The notes beneath the pieces were generated by a model. That model worked only from the letters and a program-made list of their open reading frames with translations, was not told where the DNA came from and ran no database searches. From Karstenula rhodostoma CBS 690.94 (taxonomy: Eukaryota > Ascomycota > Dothideomycetes > Pleosporales > Didymosphaeriaceae): DNA of 64,000 nt. Position 1 is the first letter of the stretch. Each line of letters opens with the position of its first letter. Location: NCBI GenBank assembly GCA_010093485.1, contig MU001496.1, forward strand, positions 462,685 to 526,684, read 5' to 3'. Shown one piece after another: positions 8,012 to 26,794 of this stretch. The position numbers and the translations under genes were made by a program.

Positions 8012-10010
8012 CTACGTCGGCACCTCCCCCACCATCCCTTTCCAAAACTCACATCTTTGCCCCCGTCCCCCTTCCCAGTCCCACGCCCCCACAACCCCAA
8101 ACGCATTCTCCACCCCCGGCTCCTCAAACTGCGTCACCTGCACCCCAAACTGCGTCGTCGCCGTATACGCCGTGCCTCCTGTCGTATTCAAATTGAGCAT
8201 CTGCGCACCCTTCCCCGGTACCCACCTCGGCCAGGCCTCCAGTCCCAGTTCACTTGCTACAGAGGGGTTCGTCCGCGTGACGAAGTTCCCCCATATTTTG
8301 CGGAAGGCTCGGGAAAACGAGGGAGACTGCTGGCGCTGGTTGGGGCCGAAGTAGGCGTAGACGTCTTCGAGGTGGGCGGCGAAGGGGACCGAGTATTGGT
8401 AGTGGAAGCTGGGGAGGGAGGAGCGGGTGTAGGACGTGGAGAGCCAGTACGAGGAGCAGATGAAGGTTGCTTCGCCGACGATGGCCTTTGCAATCGAAGT
8501 AGGTATCAGCAAGATGCAGCTTTGTAGTAGGGCGGGGAGTGCTGCGGGGGAAGACGTACATTTGCGCGCTGGAGGTGCCCCGTGGCAACTTGGCTCATGT
8601 TTGTGTTCGTCGCGCCGGTGAGTCCGTTCGTTGCGAATTTCACCGCGCTCGGGTTGTCTGAGGCGTCGGTGTTGGGATATATGGCGAGCACTTTGTCCAT
8701 GTCCTGCTCACTGAAGAAGGGGTATTTGAGCCGCAGCCACGCTTTCAGACCGTCGAGCGTGCTGATTTCGTCTTGTGGGACGAACAGCGCGCCTTCGTTG
8801 GCGTTGGTGCCGACGAGGATCGCGCGCCCGTTTACCTTTTTCTTGAACAGTGTCTCGCTGGGAAGCCCCGTGATGAAAGTGCCATCTGTCACGGGGTCGA
8901 ATGCCCACGTACGGTACACCTTCCCCGAAGTCGTCACGTTGAAGTTCGCGAGCTGCAGCGTCGCTGCATCTTTGCCGCGGAGACAGTCTAGGACGGGCCC
9001 TGACGACCCACACCCAGCCTGCGCAGCAAAGGCGTAGTACCTCTTGGTCGGTACCTCGCCGTCGTAGGTGTGCTGGCCCGGGAGGTACGGCGATGCCGCG
9101 ATGCTCTGGAACTTCGACTTCAATGTCGGCGCAAGACTAAGATGCAGCACCGCGCCCGCACCCGCAGACTCACCGGACACAGTAATCCTATTCTTGTCAC
9201 CTCCGAATATATAGATGTGCTTCTCGATCCACTCTAGGGCGAAGGCGATATCGAGGAGACCAGCGTTGGGCACGCCCTTGGCCTTGACTTCGCTGGAGGA
9301 GAGAAACCCGAACGGGCCAAGCTGGAAAATACTATATCAGTGACTCGCTCCTCACACGGGACACACCTTGCGTACTCTGTACTGGATCGAGACGCCGATG
9401 AAAGCGTTGTCGTTGTCGTTGATCATGGCACTCATGTCTGTCCGTCCATCGCCCCAGCCGTACCCGCCGCCGTGGATCCACATCAATACGGGGAGCTTCT
9501 TCGCGCGCGAACCAGACGGCGCGTACACGTTTAGGAACAAGCAGTCTTCATCGCCTGGTGGCAATCAGCGGAATGATACCTACACAAAGATGTTCTGTGT
9601 CATGCTCACCTTCCGGCATCGGCGGCGCGCCAGCGATAACAGGATACGACTGGAAGCAGACGGAGCCGTACTCGGTGGCATCCTGCACTTTTCGATTCGT
9701 TGCTGGTGTCTGCGGCCGTTTCCAGCGGAGCGCAGCGCGCGGCGGCTCAGCGAAGCGGATTCTGGAGGTGTAAGCTACCAGTATATGTCCGAGCTGCTGG
9801 TGAGTCTTCTACGCACCCTAACCAGACATTGAGGTCTGTGGTGGCGTCGTGGTATCCTTTGTACAGAGCATAGTCCAGGTCAACGACATGCTCCTGCGCG
9901 GCTAGAGACCTCTGGGATTCAGCCGTACGCTCGATATCGCTCAGCTCAACAGCTGTGGCACCGAGGAGTGTCGCAGTGAGCGAGGATATCAAGACGAGCG
10001 AGTGCCACAT
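8012..10010 (-). CDS. Secreted type-B carboxylesterase/lipase
   Basis: Five exons on the minus strand: 9817-10010, 9610-9761, 9367-9554, 8560-9321 and 8012-8485; 589 aa. An alpha/beta-hydrolase that should cleave carboxylic esters outside the cell; substrate not predictable. The start MWHSLVLISSLTATLLGATA is a clear signal peptide, so I prefer it to an ATG 15 codons upstream. Catalytic elements are all present: oxyanion motif HGGGYGWG, nucleophile elbow GESAGAG, acid in GTNANEGA and a His in AAHLEDVYAYFG. After splicing, NVWLG continues into IRFAEPPRAALRWKRPQ, the family's standard opening, which fixes the first acceptor at CTCCAG rather than the nearer TAG. Introns are 55, 55, 45 and 74 nt; the last has an AAG acceptor. 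Confidence 0.9.
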
Positions 10011-14292: not shown

Positions 14293-16912
14293 CTAATACA
14301 TATTATTACCACCCCCAGAACCCCACTGCCTGCCCCCACCCTCACTATGGCCCTGCTGCCCATACCCTCCATACCCACCACCCTGTTGCCCGGCATCATA
14401 GTTCTCGTATCCCTGCTGATACGCCGTCGGCACCGTATAACTCGGCTCCGTTCCCTGCCCACCATGATACTGTCCCTGTGCGCCCCAACCACCGACATCT
14501 CCACCAGGCGGGGCGGCATTGTACTCCGGCGCACCGCCGCCCTGGCCGCCTGCGTACGACGACTGGTACGGCTGGAAGGAGCCCCAGTCGTGCGTAGGTC
14601 CCGGCGAGGGTGAGGGATGGTACGACGCCGCGGAGTGATCGTACGACTGCGCTTGCGGAGCAGCGGCGTCGAAGTCGCCGGGTGCTTCGCGACTCCCGCT
14701 GAACATGTTGAGCGCGGGGCTGAGCTTGCTCCCCAGGCCTCCGGGAAGGTTGCCGGCGAGACTGCCGAGGAAGCCGCCGCCACTGGAGCTCGCGTGGCTC
14801 GACTGCTGGTGCTGCTGGTGCTGCTGGCCGCCGCTGTGGCCGTGGCTCACGAACGACGAGACGCCTGCGGCGCCGTGGCCGGAGCCCTGCGAGTGGTCGT
14901 TGCCGCCGCTGTGGTTCTTGCCTGCTCGAACGCTCTCTGAGCTAAGGACCTGGTTGATGTCGCCGCCGCGGTGGTTTTGTGCCCACTTTTCAACGACGGA
15001 GAACATGTTTCTGTGGATCTCGCTGTTGTGGTTGCGGATTGCGGGGTGGTGGAAGACCTGCATGCAGTCGTTGAGGACCTGGTCGACGGGCACGTCCGGA
15101 TGATCAAAAGCGTAGATCACGCGGGGTGCGACGAACTGTAGTATTACGACTGCGATCTGGCCGGCGGGTGCGTTGAGAACGTTCGAGAAGTGGTCTTTGG
15201 AGAGCATGCTGTGGGTGGGGTCCGACGAGTGTGGGTTGGTCCAGACTTCGAACTGGTGCTTAGCCGCCGAGTCGATGACGGTGGAGGAGCCTTGCTTGAG
15301 AGACTCAGAGGCAGACTTGATGATTGGCATGACGAACGGAGCCAGCAAGGACAGCACGAAGAGCGTCACGCGCTCGGTAATCGTCTCAATGAGCTTCTCC
15401 AGGCCTGGGATCTTTTCGATTATCGCGGAAATGTTCCTGACTACGTTGTCTCGGAACTCCAGGATTGGGTAGATTTTGGGAATGATGGTTGCAGGGTCAG
15501 TGTTTGTACCTGGAATGTTAGGTCCAGGTGGTCCACCGATAGATCCAGGTGGTGCATCAAAGGCAGGGGCTGCGCCTTGATGTTGGCCAGGGCCGCCTGC
15601 TCTCGAGCTGCTGTAATCATCGTAGCCTCCGCTTCGGTATCCATGTCCTGAATTTGCGGCAGCCTGTGCATCAGACATTGCTTGAAGCTGATGAGCCTCC
15701 TTGATTAAGCCACTAGTTCCAGGAACCTTCCCGAGGACGTCCGTAAGAGCCGAGCAGCTGCCTCCACCTCCGCTTCCTTTCGTGTTGCTTGTCAAAGCGT
15801 CTGACAGCGTTGTGTTCATCTCATCAACCTCCGATTGCGTGATATGGTCAGTCGCCTCACCTAGCACAGAATGGAAGAAGTCGACACCTCCAAAAGTTCC
15901 AGTCACGAGCGGATAAACATGTTTGCCGTGGAGATTGATCTGTGTCTGAGTTCCTGTATGCGAGAACACATTCGAGTATCCCAGTTCTCGTAAAGCAAGC
16001 TCAGTGTAATTAGTATGAGCACCAAAATCCTCGAGGCAGTGGAGGCCTTGTCCGAGACACCGCAATGCTTCAGCAAGATTTGCTTCGTTTCCGCTCTCTC
16101 CATTAGGCCCGTGGGTATACATGCGGCCGTAGTGGATGGCTCGAGAGAAAGAGAATTTGACATAGCCTGCAGACGTTGCCCAATTACCTCTCTCATTAGC
16201 AATATAGTTCTTCATTCCAGTCTCCGGGTCGACAGCAAGCTCGATATCTGCAATGGGTCCGCGCAGACGAGGGTCGAACTTCCTGGCATCCTGGTTATCG
16301 GCATAGTCTTTCGGGTTGTCAATGTGCTCTTCTGGCCTGTAAACACCAAGTCGGTCGGCGGTAACCTCAAACTCGCCAGTCGCATATCCGAATGACATAA
16401 AAGCCAGGATCCACACAAGGACGCGAATGGTGTCACCCTCGGCGGCTGTTAGTTCGGATACGCGGCACACCTGCAGATTCAAGACTCACTTGAACTTTGC
16501 TCAAAGTTGCGGTGTCTACAGCCTGTAACTCATTAACTGGGTCCACCTCAGGGAGGAGATAATATGGTACCTGCGAGTAATCTCGGAGCCAGTTGCCAAA
16601 GTACACGCGCTGGCACAGATTAGCTCCTACACCTTTCCATACACGCATGGAGCATACCTTGATCATCATGGACTTCCACTTGTGACCTTTCAAGCACGCA
16701 ACCGTAGCGAGCATGTCCTCGATATCTCCATGGCGCCAATTCTTCCCTTCAACGGCGGAGATGGATCTGCACCATACATCAGCACGTGTCTCTGCCTTTG
16801 TTTTGGTGACAACTCACGCGATGTTGCCGGCGCCAAAAGCATGCGCTTTCGCTGGTAGCAGCACTAACACGGCCAGCGCGATGAGCAGCACGTATTTTGC
16901 CTGGATTGCCAT
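14293..16912 (-). CDS. hetC: Heterokaryon-incompatibility protein HET-C
   Basis: Five exons: 16818-16912, 16658-16766, 16571-16609, 16490-16522 and 14293-16437; 806 aa. In Neurospora, het-c alleles control vegetative incompatibility; the protein is a secreted or plasma-membrane glycine-rich protein. A signal peptide (MAIQAKYVLLIALAVLVLLP.. AHAFGAGNIASI) is followed by the highly conserved block WRHGDIEDML, RVYFGNWLRDYSQ, RVLVWILAFMSFGYATGEFEV, YRPEEHIDNPKDYADNQDAR and LHCLEDFGAHTNYTEL. The last 200 residues are Gly/Gln/His/Ser-rich low complexity, as in Neurospora HET-C. Two internal exons are only 39 and 33 nt, and introns are 48-52 nt. The splice KVQ to GDTIRV uses a GAG acceptor. Next to the UstYa-like gene on the same strand. 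Confidence 0.93.
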
Positions 16913-17388: not shown

Positions 17389-18496
17389 CTACAGATTTGA
17401 GTCTTGGTCTAACGGCAATCCCAAGCCTCCCTCCGAAACCGGTTTGTGGTTCGGGTTGTCATATCCCCAGTACTCGTAATACTTGTCTGCAGCAGGTAGC
17501 TGCTTGATGCCTGGCTTGTCGCCCTCTGGCTGCTTCATCACTTCGACGTACTTGTCCATGTCGATGCTGTTTTCTCTGCGCCAGTCGGTGAATTTGTCGA
17601 AGTTGTGGCACTTCTTGTTGATGGACCTATTACACGGCGTGAGCTACGAAGTGGAAAGAGCGCGGGAAGGGATACTACAACGTACATGTCGGCGAAAGGG
17701 TACTCTTGTGTGTACATCCAGACCAGGGGGATCATGTCCAAGTTGCCCGAGCACTGGATCGATTGGAGCAGGATGTCAAAGCAGTGGTTCATGTGCAGCT
17801 CCCGCTGCATGACTTTGTCCGCTCGAGCTTGGCTCATGTTGTCTATTCAGACACGTTAGTCAAGACCTTCTCTCAAATCTGGCAAGCGAACGCGGTCGAC
17901 TCACAATAACCCCCGTATACGACTTTCCGCAACGAGTTCAAGCAGTGCAGCTGATGATAGACATCAAAAATCGCTGCGTATGCGTTGTCTCCTAAGCCCC
18001 AGTCTTTATCTTCCAGCTTGGTCACAGTCGTGTAGTCCTTGCCCATCTTGGTGAGCTCCTCGCGCGTCACGGGATACACACGCGTCAACTCCCACTCTTC
18101 CCAGATCTTGTCATCCGCAGGGTTGGGCTGATGCCGCATTACACTGCCGCCTTCCTTCGGTGGGAAGAACGTTCCATTGATGATAACATCCTCGAAGTCA
18201 ACTGTGTATTTGTCGTATATGGGACTGTATCCGGATACTCTTCGAAGAGCTGCGTTGCGCACCAGATAGTGGCTGTGGAACCATACGCCGAAAAGGCTGA
18301 TTGAGACAAGGAGGATGGAGAGGTTGATGACTAAAACGAGTATGAGGGCTCGACAGCTTAAGACGAAGTGTCTCTGGTCTTTTGTGTGGGATCCGCTGAT
18401 GAAGCCTTTTGTCTCATCCTCGTCTGATTCTGAGGTAGAGTCGCGGCTGCTGCCCGAGGCCACCGGTTTGTATTCAAGCTTCTCTAACCATTTCAT
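17389..18496 (-). CDS. UstYa-family (DUF3328) membrane oxidase-like protein
   Basis: Three exons, 17905-18496, 17686-17842 and 17389-17626, 328 aa. UstYa proteins are required for oxidative macrocyclisation of fungal RiPPs (ustiloxin, phomopsin, asperipin) and also occur in other secondary-metabolite clusters. An acidic cytosolic N-terminus is followed by one membrane segment at about 49-71, consistent with a secretory-pathway anchor. Both hallmark HxxHC motifs are present: HQLHC at about 181-185 and HMNHC at about 214-218. WEEW and YPVTREELTKMG before motif 1 also fit. Introns are 62 and 59 or so nt and splice KVVYGGY to YNMSQARAD and FADM to SINKKCHNFDKF. Longer than many members because of the N- and C-terminal tails. 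Its 5' end faces the Kex2-repeat precursor at 19911, so it is the likely modifying enzyme. Confidence 0.9.
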
Positions 18497-18856
18497 GATG
18501 AAAGGAAAGAGCGCAACAGAGGGATAGAATGTTCGAAAGTCGTGACCTTGAAGTCAAAGAATAAGCGGTTGGAAGCGGAGTTGGTTGATGCGTCATTTGG
18601 AACATGGTGGGGGCCGCCATACTGTATACATGGAATGGTGGACTATCATCATGCATCGCGTGCTTCTTCACAATGACACCGTAGATAAGGCTAGTGTTGT
18701 CGAGCTGCATCAAGGTGGTTCCTCCGGATCCTTAGATGATGCACGTCTTCCATTATTGGTCAGATCGAATCTCGGACATCTCGCTACCGTGGTTGCGGCC
18801 ATAAGTTTGGGCAGTGGGGCGATGCGCCACCCCGACAGAACAGAATATGCCAGAAC

Positions 18857-18981
18857 CCCCTAGTACTATTAGAATAACGCTAATTATTTCTATACGCGTA
18901 TTTTATATATAAATTAGAAATCCTAGTAATCCCCTCTAGTATTTCTATATATTTTATAGATGACGAATTAATATATCTATC
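18857..18981. repeat. AT-rich island, possible decayed element
   Basis: A sharply bounded run of about 125 bp that is strongly A/T-rich (TATA, TAATTA, ATTTCTATA words; TTTCTATA recurs) inside DNA of ordinary composition. CCTAGTA-type words occur near the left end and again in the middle. Such patches in Dothideomycete genomes are often remnants of RIP-mutated repeats. No terminal repeats or coding remnants can be seen, so identity is unproven. Confidence 0.4.
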
Positions 18982-19820
18982 GCCAAGAAACCGCCAAAAA
19001 CACCCTCCCCGGCGGACCTACTGCCTAAACTTATGGCCGCAACCACAGTATATTCTCAATAACACGATGATACATATTCACCAGGATCTGCCAAGCGTGC
19101 ACACACCTTCCTAGTCAGGAAAAAGCCGTTACGCAAGTCAGAAGAATGCGAGGTAAGCGCCCAGATCACCTGCCTGGTTCGGTCATGTTACAGCACATCA
19201 AATTGTAGGATTCTACATACTACACATAGTATAGCTGCTGGAGCGTAAGGCCCACACTCGATAAGAACCAACTCAAGATGATCAATCTATGGACGCTTCA
19301 AGCACCGCTAGTGCTGCAGTCAATAACGGATCCATCTACTGCCTCACCTTTCCTGACCCTTCAACATCCGACTCGTCCAAAATGCAAGCCAAGTAGCACA
19401 TCTTTGAATCCTCGAGGTCGCCAAGCGGTGAGTGTATGCGTAAGAAATATCACTGTGCAGGCACGCTTCAAAGAATGATAGGCTTGTACTGCCTTGTGGG
19501 ATGCTGTGGAGACGTACTCGCATGTCCTAGTTCGGGTAGGCACCAACGGCGCTGATCACCAGACGTGCTATGGCAATATTGGTGGCCGCATACTTGCCAT
19601 AGGTGCTTTGTGCCCGTGGAAGCCGATCGGCACAGCTCGTCCAGCCGATCTTAAGGTACTGATGTGTCACCGTCCGTAATGGGTCGATGATACGAGCCGT
19701 CCTTGTGATGGCAACAGAATCCTTCTGACGTAAGAGGAAACGGTGTGATGTGGTCGATCAGGCTGCGGTATGATAGCGAATTCGAGTGGCTATCGCCGGG
19801 TGTGCCTGGATTGAACGTGG

Positions 19821-19828
19821 TATATAAG
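19821..19828 (+). promoter_or_regulatory. TATA box of the Kex2-repeat precursor gene
   Basis: TATATAAG lies 83-90 bp before the ATG at 19911, at a normal distance for a fungal TATA promoter. Most other genes in the window lack such a clear box. This fits an inducible, strongly expressed secreted product. Confidence 0.5.
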
Positions 19829-19910
19829 TAATTCAACACCCTCTGGCCACTCGTCAGCCGGCAGGTCACGCCACATTCCGCTACCTATACACCTCGTTGT
19901 CTCTTCCAAG

Positions 19911-20862
19911 ATGCGTTTCGTCGAAGCTCTCAGCGCTGCGGCGCTCTTTTCTACGCTTGGAGCTGCTGCTCCTGTCGCCAAGAGTGAGAAGAGGACCGAG
20001 TTTGCCCCTTGGTACCGTGCGACGAACATCTTGCCCGCCAGCGATGAGAAGCGCTCTGCCGATAAGGTAATTAGTCCAAGTACTTCCAACTGATATGTCG
20101 TATGCTGAAGCAGAGAAGCGCACAGAGTTCGCCCCCTGGTACCGCGCGACTAACATCCTTCCTGCGAGCGATGACAAGAAGCGCGACATTGAAGAGAAGC
20201 GCACAGAGTTTGCCCCCTGGTACCGCGCAACCAACATCCTCCCAGCCAGCGACGAGAAGCGTGAGGTGAAGGAGAAGCGTACCGAATTTGCTCCTTGGTA
20301 TCGCGCAACGAACATCCTTCCAGCCAGCGATGAGAAGCGCGACGTGGAAGCACCCGAGGAGAAGCGCACTGAGTTCGCTCCCTGGTACCGCGCAACGAAT
20401 ATCCTGCCGGCTAGCGACGAGAAGCGCGACGTGGAAGCACCTGAAGAGAAGCGCACTGAGTTTGCTCCCTGGTACCGCGCGACGAATATTCTGCCAGCCA
20501 GCGACGAGAAGCGCGACATGCAAGCACCCGAAGAGAAGCGCACCGAGTTCGCGCCATGGTACCGCGCGACCAACATCCTGCCAGCCAGCGACGAGAAGCG
20601 TGACATTCAGGCACCCGAGGAGAAGCGCACCGAGTTCGCGCCATGGTACCGCGCGACCAACATCCTGCCAGCCAGCGACGAGAAGCGTGACATTCAGGCA
20701 CCCGAGGAGAAGCGCACCGAGTTCGCGCCATGGTACCGCGCGACCAACATCCTGCCAGCCAGCGACGAGAAGCGTGACATTCAGGCACCCGAGGAGAAGC
20801 GCACCGAGTTCGCGCCATGGTACCGCGCGACCAACATTCTCCCTGCCAACGACGAGGAGTAA
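19911..20862 (+). CDS. Secreted Kex2-repeat precursor, candidate dikaritin-type RiPP precursor
   Basis: Two exons, 19911-20066 and 20116-20862, 300 aa. A signal peptide (MRFVEALSAAALFSTLGAAA) is followed by ten copies of the block TEFAPWYRATNILPASDE, each preceded by EKR and nearly all followed by KR. Kexin cleavage after Lys-Arg would release an 18-residue core and a short acidic spacer (DIEE, EVKE, DVEAPEE, DMQAPEE or DIQAPEE). The core is invariant from T to PA in all copies; only the first copy of exon 2 (SDDKKR) and the last (ANDEE) vary at the end. Each core contains a Trp-Tyr pair and a downstream Ile, residues of the kind crosslinked in dikaritins. The 49-nt intron (GTAATT..GCAGAG) must use a GAG acceptor to keep frame. 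Divergent UstYa-like neighbour. Alternative: an unmodified Kex2-processed peptide family (KEP). The core lacks the Cys-containing alpha-pheromone signature. Confidence 0.85.
19984..20859 (+). repeat. Tandem coding repeats, 10 units, up to 87 bp each
   Basis: Unit 1 sits in exon 1 and units 2-10 in exon 2. Early units (1-4) differ at many synonymous sites and have shorter spacers. The last units (starts at 20602, 20689 and 20776 for the spacer) are 87 bp and almost identical in DNA, pointing to recent expansion or gene conversion at the 3' end. The repeat phase is the coding phase, so copy number can change without frameshift. Confidence 0.95.
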
Positions 20863-25754: not shown

Positions 25755-26794
25755 CTACGCGAGCTTCCCCGGAACAAAAGGGTGCCCCGCCGACAACCCC
25801 CCATCCACGGCCCACGCCTGCCCATTCACATAACTCGCCTCATCGCTCCCCAAAAACAACACGGCCCTCGCAATCTCATCCGCCACACCCCCTCTCCTTA
25901 GCGGATTCAGCTGCCCAATCTTCCCCGTGCTGCCTCTTGCCCGTGCCGCATCGTACGTCGCCCTCGTCATGCCCGTCTCGATGAGCCCGGGACACACGGC
26001 ATTACACCGTATGCCCGTGCCCGCGAGCTGGAACGCGCACGTCTGCATCAAGCTCACGACGGCGGCTTTGCTCGCGGCGTAGTCCGTGGGGCCGGCGTTG
26101 GAGCGCAGGCCTGCAACGGAGGCGGTCGCGATGATGGAGCCCTGGGGGTAAGGTTTCGCGTCCGATATCTTGAGCATGGCGCGGGAGGCGTATTTGGCTG
26201 CCAGGAAAACGGAGAGCGTGTTCGTGCGCATCATCTTCATGAAGCCCTCCGTGTCCTCCTCCCAGAAGACCTTCGCGCTGCTGATGCCCGCGTTCGCGAA
26301 GAAGATGTCGAGCCTGCCATACGTGTCGACTGCCTCGGCGACGACGGCCTTGACCGCGGCCTCATCCGCGGCGTCGAAGACGCGGGTGTGGACGTCTACA
26401 TCTGGGTAGAGGGATGCGAGTTCGCGCTTGTGCGTGGGGAGGTGGGTGTCCGCGAAGTCGCAGATGTATATGGCTTTTGCGCCGTTGCGGGCGAATTGGT
26501 GGGCGGAGGCGCGACCGATTCCAATGGGGGAGTTTGTGCCGGTGATGATCACGACTTTGTCTTTCACGCGTCTTTCGTCCCGTTAGCTTCGTGTGCTTTG
26601 CTTGGGCTTGGGCTGGGGAATGCGAAGGGAAAGGAAGGGGATAACCCAAGGGAAACGCACCTATCACCGAGATTCCCCGCTATTTCCCTCACTCGCGGTA
26701 TATCCTCAAACGTCCCCGGGTCTTGCGGACCCTCGGAGAGCTCTCTGCTGAGCCCTTGCTGTTTTACCTTGGGGATTTTCGGATCGGATGGCAT
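25755..26794 (-). CDS. Short-chain dehydrogenase/reductase (SDR)
   Basis: Two exons, 26661-26794 and 25755-26571, 316 aa. A classical SDR oxidoreductase using NAD(P)H; substrate unknown. The Rossmann motif TGTNSPIGIG is a slight variant of TGxxxGIG with one extra residue, then NAGIS, the catalytic Ser in IIATASVAG, YAASK (catalytic Tyr and Lys) and CPGLIETGM. The tail DEASYVNGQAWAVDGGLS is typical of the classical family. The 89-nt intron (GTGCGT..AAAG, branch GCTAACG) joins IAGNLGD to RRVKDKVVIITG. The N-terminal 45 residues encoded mainly by exon 1 are polar and lack a targeting signal. Asp in CDFAD after strand 2 suggests a preference for NAD(H). It lies about 5 kb from the RiPP-like pair, separated by two other genes, so a shared pathway is not supported. 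Confidence 0.9.

Follow-up and report, generated by a model that had tools for sequence, protein, structure and literature searches.

The closest described systems to the locus analyzed here are the asperipin-2a cluster of Aspergillus flavus and the ustiloxin and phomopsin clusters. The asperipin-2a cluster consists of four genes (aprA/aprY/aprT/aprR). It encodes a repeat precursor with Lys-Arg (KR) sites, AprY is its only UstYa homologue, a tyrosinase is absent, and AprY is proposed to form both rings, according to the accessible text of PMC6514808. The ustiloxin and phomopsin precursors have a signal-like leader and Kex2-separated repeats with YAIG/YVIG/YVIP cores, and their UstYa-family oxidases are accompanied by a tyrosinase and a methyltransferase. 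During the analysis of a 64,000-nucleotide stretch of the genome of Karstenula rhodostoma CBS 690.94 (hereafter the window; C5:462685-526684 of a 44.3 Mb genome in 29 contigs), a divergent pair of genes was recognized, one encoding a Kex2-processed repeat precursor and the other a UstYa (DUF3328) protein, with start codons 1,414 bp apart. Judged from the sequence, the two genes of this locus probably form a module whose product would be a ribosomal, secreted, and oxidatively modified peptide.

The locus resembles the asperipin-2a cluster in its KR-site repeat precursor, its single UstYa homologue, and the lack of a tyrosinase. The core is WYRATNI[LI]P here, in contrast to FYYTGY there, and the transporter and the isoflavone-reductase-like gene of asperipin-2a were not seen at the window locus. 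A signal-like leader, the repeats, and the oxidase family are shared with ustiloxin and phomopsin, and the core has a Tyr with Ile after it, and in phomopsin also Pro, as here. The cores themselves are different, and the tyrosinase, the methyltransferase, and the several UstYa genes of those clusters were not found here. The whole precursor layout is that of the KEX2-processed repeat proteins (KEPs; Le Marquer 2019, Umemura 2020), while the window core matches none of the KEP motifs EDYXI, DADAATXYV, YVWG, SPPHKT, QKLKVD, and XSDW given in the accessible part of PMC6339444. The core strings were not found in the open PMC literature (5.39 million papers), although the supplementary tables of PMC7329392 and PMC6339444, outside the scope of that search, may list the precursor. 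In the papers searched, WYRATNI[LI]P was not encountered as a core type, in agreement with the preliminary description of this locus, which had judged the core unlike the known ones; the pairing of a precursor with UstYa is of an already known kind.

The precursor contains 19 KR sites and ten cores, which is the arrangement of Kex2-separated repeated cores that defines KEPs. All ten cores have TEFAPWYRATNILPA in common. Eight of them read TEFAPWYRATNILPASDE-KR; copy 2 ends with SDDKKR, and copy 10 ends with NDEE and has no KR site. The earlier count of ten identical cores is thus right in number, while the cores are near-identical. The spacers between them (SADKR, DIEEKR, EVKEKR, and D[V/M/I][E/Q]APEEKR) are short and acidic, and Tandem Repeats Finder gave the array a period of 87 and a score of 859. 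The N-terminus is hydrophobic and ends with AAAP; it is signal-like by eye, and M-R and A-A-P are invariant in the six homologues described below. The monoisotopic mass of the linear core was calculated as 2079.99, which reproduces the earlier value of about 2080.0.

This precursor is the only open reading frame in the window that was caught by a Kex2-repeat detector requiring at least 3 KR-separated pieces that share a 5-mer in one open frame. The ten exact WYRATNI sites in the genome are all within the precursor, and places with two mismatches numbered 31, against 13 for a reversed control. DNA coding for WYRATNI was also sought in viral contigs, where 11 stretches with seven WYRATNI translations were recognized; none is in a Kex2-repeat frame, and they were rejected.

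Across the ten copies, the third position varies in 15 of the 17 core codons, and the only amino-acid change, from S to N, is found in copy 10. Counted as distinct codons, the variants comprise 24 synonymous and 1 non-synonymous, where the expected non-synonymous share is 119/153 (binomial p = 4e-15, assuming equal mutation rates and independent changes). Strong purifying selection acts on the core WYRATNI[LI]P. One could suppose the tandem array to be a repeat without function or an artefact of the assembly, and the identical core codons of copies 7-9 fit a recent duplication or an assembly error. However, the copies diverge almost only silently, the frame and the Kex2 sites are intact, and homologues exist in Paraphaeosphaeria minitans, Byssothecium, and other sources. 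This explanation is extremely improbable and was rejected.

Two protein searches for relatives of the precursor were performed, both limited to 0.55-1.75 times the query length, the first of which scored the best 7,996 candidates. Six relatives were obtained, including P0002, which is PMIN03_007071 of P. minitans, and P0004 (CC80DRAFT_594887) from Byssothecium circinans. Both species belong to Massarineae in Pleosporales, and P. minitans is a mycoparasite used in biocontrol. In total, 27 copies of the core occur in the window precursor and the six relatives. None of them departs from W, Y, R, A, T, N, and I or from the P that comes two places on, and the position between I and P holds L in 22 copies and I in 5. 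The five residues preceding W are variable (TEFAP, AVYQA, KVYHA, etc.), the core tail is acidic, and the spacers drift too. The copy number also differs, with 3 in P. minitans and 10 in the window. An extra leader piece, KR[LM]PTPEEF, is present in P0004, P0005, and P0006 and absent from the window precursor.

For the intron of the precursor gene, the acceptor at 20118 is favored because it yields SADKR, resembling SVDKR of P0002; the alternative acceptor would lead to a precursor of 300 aa. The donor at 20067 with an acceptor at 20113 was dropped as out of frame, and the donor at 20080 with the same acceptor, which is in frame, was dropped for its 34-base intron.

The enzyme gene was assigned with PF11807, which scored 68.4 and 36.6 bits for exons of the window gene (cut-off 25) and 147.3 bits for the orthologue P0007. 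The two HxxHC motifs are HQLHC at residues 181-185 and HMNHC at residues 214-218. With these scores, motifs, and exact coordinates, the divergent UstYa-like protein with two HxxHC motifs in the preliminary description is confirmed. A protein search gave 120 UstYa relatives. In the 48 relatives that were aligned, no substitution occurs at H181, H184, C185, H214, or C218, and H217 is almost invariant. The best relative is P0007 (PMIN03_007070 of P. minitans), whose 94% identity across all 328 residues supports the three-exon splice model.

The AlphaFold monomer of P0007 (mean pLDDT 82.6) has a disordered start and a long helix at 48-78, which is hydrophobic by eye, and the two motifs lie on the neighboring helices 178-193 and 205-229, forming the helical domain characteristic of UstYa. 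A search of PDB returned no sequence relative at E <= 0.01 and no fold match at E <= 0.001. CctR, the DUF3328 hydroxylase of cyclochlorotine, has the same HxxHC(x)nHxxHC arrangement, one long N-terminal helix, and a motif-bearing helical domain; it is reported to be copper-dependent with a copper content of 2:1 and to lose its activity in His/Cys mutants (accessible text of PMC12435403). The window UstYa is a probable copper enzyme.

A tree of 50 rows was built from the 48 relatives, the window gene, and a paralogue on contig C4. The window UstYa and P0007 belong to a supported group with 22 members. Identity to P0007 is 55-64% in the remaining 20, and the named ones among these are from Melanomma, Clathrospora, Ascochyta, Neodidymelliopsis, and Neocucurbitaria, all Pleosporales. 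The C4 paralogue groups with P0109 outside this group. Shorter matches were excluded from the tree. Among them is P0032 from Cytospora schulzeri, a sordariomycete genus, which is 66% identical over 76% of the query and closer than expected outside Pleosporales.

In P. minitans, the UstYa gene and the precursor gene have the consecutive tags PMIN03_007070 and PMIN03_007071, and their contigs have an equal stated length of 100,935. The pair is therefore very probably adjacent there as well, and the pairing of precursor and UstYa in the preliminary description holds. PF11807 gave 59 matches genome-wide, merged to about 42 genes or ~1 per Mb, and at this density an adjacent UstYa gene is unlikely by accident. 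Both the recurrence of the pair and the rarity of chance adjacency argue against the alternative that the peptide is secreted as an unmodified linear signal, like a pheromone or an effector, and that its UstYa neighbor is coincidental or acts on another substrate. Published base rates (accessible text of PMC7329392) bear on this explanation in both directions. There, DUF3328 genes are within 15 genes of 22% of repeat precursors (30.1% in Ascomycota), mostly at the adjacent position, so that the window pairing is ordinary in kind; the majority, 78%, have no UstYa nearby, as a linear signal would allow. Only 3 of 216 putative fungal pheromone precursors have a DUF3328 gene near them (PMC7329392). 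An invariant core would suit a ligand whose receptor is fixed, but the core here is without Cys. Filamentous alpha-pheromones have a Trp-Cys motif in a WCxxxGQxC-like core, which is not present here. A linear signal is on balance improbable. An ascomycete alpha-pheromone precursor was rejected, as the core has no Cys and a UstYa gene adjoins. A genome scan for the pheromone motif gave 8 matches against 4 for a reversed control, and six loci examined contained no repeat precursor; the scan was uninformative, and the genuine pheromone gene was not located with it.

Several points weigh against the two-gene module. DUF3328 enzymes also hydroxylate, chlorinate, and transacylate. The UstYa search result contained none from Byssothecium, although Byssothecium has the core. 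Conversely, no WYRATN precursor was found from the Pleosporales with UstYa relatives (Ascochyta, Clathrospora, Neocucurbitaria, and others, and Pyrenophora with a partial sequence) in length-bounded searches, where the annotation of small genes is patchy. The pairing of a WYRATN precursor with UstYa is seen in two close species only, Karstenula and P. minitans. If homologues consistently lacked a UstYa neighbor, the preliminary description was to be given up; the P. minitans pair speaks for it, and for Byssothecium and for the Pleosporales that have UstYa relatives the partner was not found, which answers this condition only in part. The exact copy number depends on the assembly, given the identity of copies 7-9, and the 78% of repeat precursors without UstYa nearby count here as well.

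For the two-gene module, the following course is proposed. The precursor would enter the endoplasmic reticulum, and Kex2 would cut the 19 KR sites in the Golgi, where the cleavage of repeat precursors takes place (accessible text of PMC7329392). A carboxypeptidase would trim KR, and ten peptides, mostly of 18 residues, would be freed together with the acidic spacers. The membrane-anchored UstYa, with its copper site in the lumen, would then oxidize the conserved W-Y-R-A-T-N-I-[LI]-P; a location in membranes of the Golgi, endosome, and vacuole is described for CctR (PMC12435403). The oxidation would most likely link the invariant Tyr, or the Trp, with a carbon of a neighboring side chain, with a loss of 2 Da per link. 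The acidic flanks and tail may be trimmed afterwards, and the peptide would be secreted.

An ether macrocycle, as named in the preliminary description, is not supported as stated; relatives of UstYa also hydroxylate and chlorinate. The enzyme might instead act on the peptide as a hydroxylase or another C-H oxidase and give a linear oxidized peptide with no macrocycle. CctR, from the same family, is a copper hydroxylase, although in its case the substrate is a nonribosomal cyclic peptide (PMC12435403). Neither a tyrosinase nor a second UstYa is nearby, and the aromatic residue at position -3 of the core is F in 19 of the 27 copies and Y in 8, which is not a fixed phenol and is thus ill suited to an obligatory Tyr ether. 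On the other hand, Tyr and Trp within the core are invariant, each of ustiloxin, phomopsin, and asperipin-2a is a Tyr ether macrocycle (accessible text of PMC7329392), and a single enzyme, AprY, is the proposed maker of both asperipin-2a rings. A linear oxidized product is considered fairly unlikely. The lack of variation in the core points to a single target or receptor that stays fixed, and less to a toxin that diversifies. It is conceivable, though unlikely, that the product is a cross-linked peptide hormone or signal, whose nine-residue core was frozen across Massarineae by a fixed receptor, unlike the known toxins of UstYa pathways, and that a paralogous pair was re-tuned to another core.

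The assignment of the locus to dikaritins depends on the definition, both forms of which are reported in the accessible text of PMC12048977. Under the definition of Ding, a dikaritin cluster has a tyrosinase and a methyltransferase, more than one DUF3328 protein, and either a transporter or a peptidase; the later and looser one of Montalban-Lopez needs a DUF3328 protein with two HxxHC motifs. The locus has the latter. A tyrosinase, a methyltransferase, and a transporter or peptidase were not found at it, and the next UstYa match on C5 is 403 kb distant. The locus is read as a ust-RiPS/dikaritin-like two-gene module, not a dikaritin sensu Ding, and the term dikaritin-type used earlier stands under the looser definition only. 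Pfam was scanned over 39 stretches of the window plus P0007, a scan in which short exons could be missed, and no MFS/ABC transporter, methyltransferase, tyrosinase, or S41 peptidase was recognized in the 39 stretches. None of the 33 tyrosinase matches and none of the 5 S41 peptidase matches in the genome is on contig C5. The locus is minimal, as had been supposed.

Other UstYa genes in this genome also adjoin repeat precursors. The closest own-genome paralogue of the window UstYa (C4:1248384-1249283, minus strand; 40-50% identity by exon; likely start codon at 1249394) diverges from a repeat precursor at C4:1250557-1250948 on the plus strand, with 1.16 kb between the start codons (locus L049, C4:1244500-1253000). 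The gene of that precursor has a signal-like exon and a short intron, and it encodes four TYAPLVY[TV]GGL units; KR follows three of these. The divergent layout of enzyme and substrate, the signal-like exon, and the short intron are shared with the window pair, and the layout thus recurs with a different core and a copy number of four. The two pairs may share descent as a pair or may have been assembled independently. The window locus adds a compact core type to the fungal ribosomal peptides, and the two pairs (WYRATNILP vs TYAPLVYTGGL) offer a clean test bed for substrate choice by UstYa copper enzymes. As a two-gene system, the locus bears on the question of whether a single enzyme can achieve cross-linking when no tyrosinase is present.

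The Kex2-repeat detector was applied to 30 UstYa loci with 1.5 kb flanks, which represent 28 of the 42 UstYa genes. It fired in six of the 30 (L009, L022, L010, L014, L016, and L020), corresponding to five precursors at 6/28 genes, as L009 and L022 have one precursor in common. Flanks that were too short kept the window locus (L030) and the C4 locus (L024) from being detected; with both added, 8/28 UstYa genes have a repeat precursor. Apart from the window precursor, at least six repeat precursors adjoin UstYa genes in this genome. Nothing was detected in six further loci (L043-L048). A looser setting, for which two 4-mers in common were enough, gave signals in many loci and also in shuffles, where up to 2 pieces were shared, and only cases with at least 3 were kept; at this setting, none of 150 base shuffles (5 x 30 loci) reached three shared pieces.

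Table 1. Features of the precursor-UstYa locus and its surroundings in the window.
Feature	Position	Strand	Remark
Kex2-processed repeat precursor gene, 299 aa, exons 19911-20066 and 20119-20862	19911..20862	+	homologues P0001-P0006
Intron GT..AG	20067..20118	+	P. minitans comparison; 20115 acceptor also in frame
Ten core copies TEFAPWYRATNILPA[S/N]D, 1 in exon 1 and 9 in exon 2	19995..20859	+	
Signal-peptide-like N-terminal segment MRFVEALSAAALFSTLGAAAP	19911..19973	+	judged by eye
UstYa/DUF3328 oxidase gene, 328 aa, exons 18496-17905, 17842-17686, and 17626-17389	17389..18496	-	
Upstream region common to both divergent start codons, 1,414 bp	18497..19910	.	
Carboxylesterase	8512-9333	-	Pfam scan
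Het-C heterokaryon incompatibility gene	14293-16813	-	directly downstream of the UstYa gene
Mitochondrial carrier	21.8-23.0 kb		Pfam scan; not counted as a cluster transporter
SDR (short-chain dehydrogenase)	25761-26579	-	4.9 kb beyond the precursor, with two other genes in between

The neighbors in the window are mostly housekeeping-like and include a PP-loop ATPase, Het-C, the mitochondrial carrier, the SDR, a tRNA-splicing endonuclease subunit, and a class II tRNA synthetase. The SDR is a weak candidate for an accessory reductase, by analogy with the reductase of asperipin.

Among the other repeat precursors, the one shared by L009 and L022 (C18 about 125-130 kb) lies between two UstYa genes and has units such as KADPQWYDITYVDKR. 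Two further precursors adjoin UstYa genes on C5, with units such as IFESDGALQV...DASSYA at about 65 kb (L010) and VDQAFVNVAYYGLKER at about 77 kb (L014). The repeated units GESIWT in L016 (C1 about 220 kb) and DSDDVWLWKKR in L020 (C12 about 770 kb), beside UstYa genes, contain Trp and no Tyr, and these precursors are possible UstYa substrates without a phenol. At C17:36929-39129, UstYa matches adjoin tyrosinase matches, and this is perhaps a fuller ustiloxin/phomopsin-like locus.

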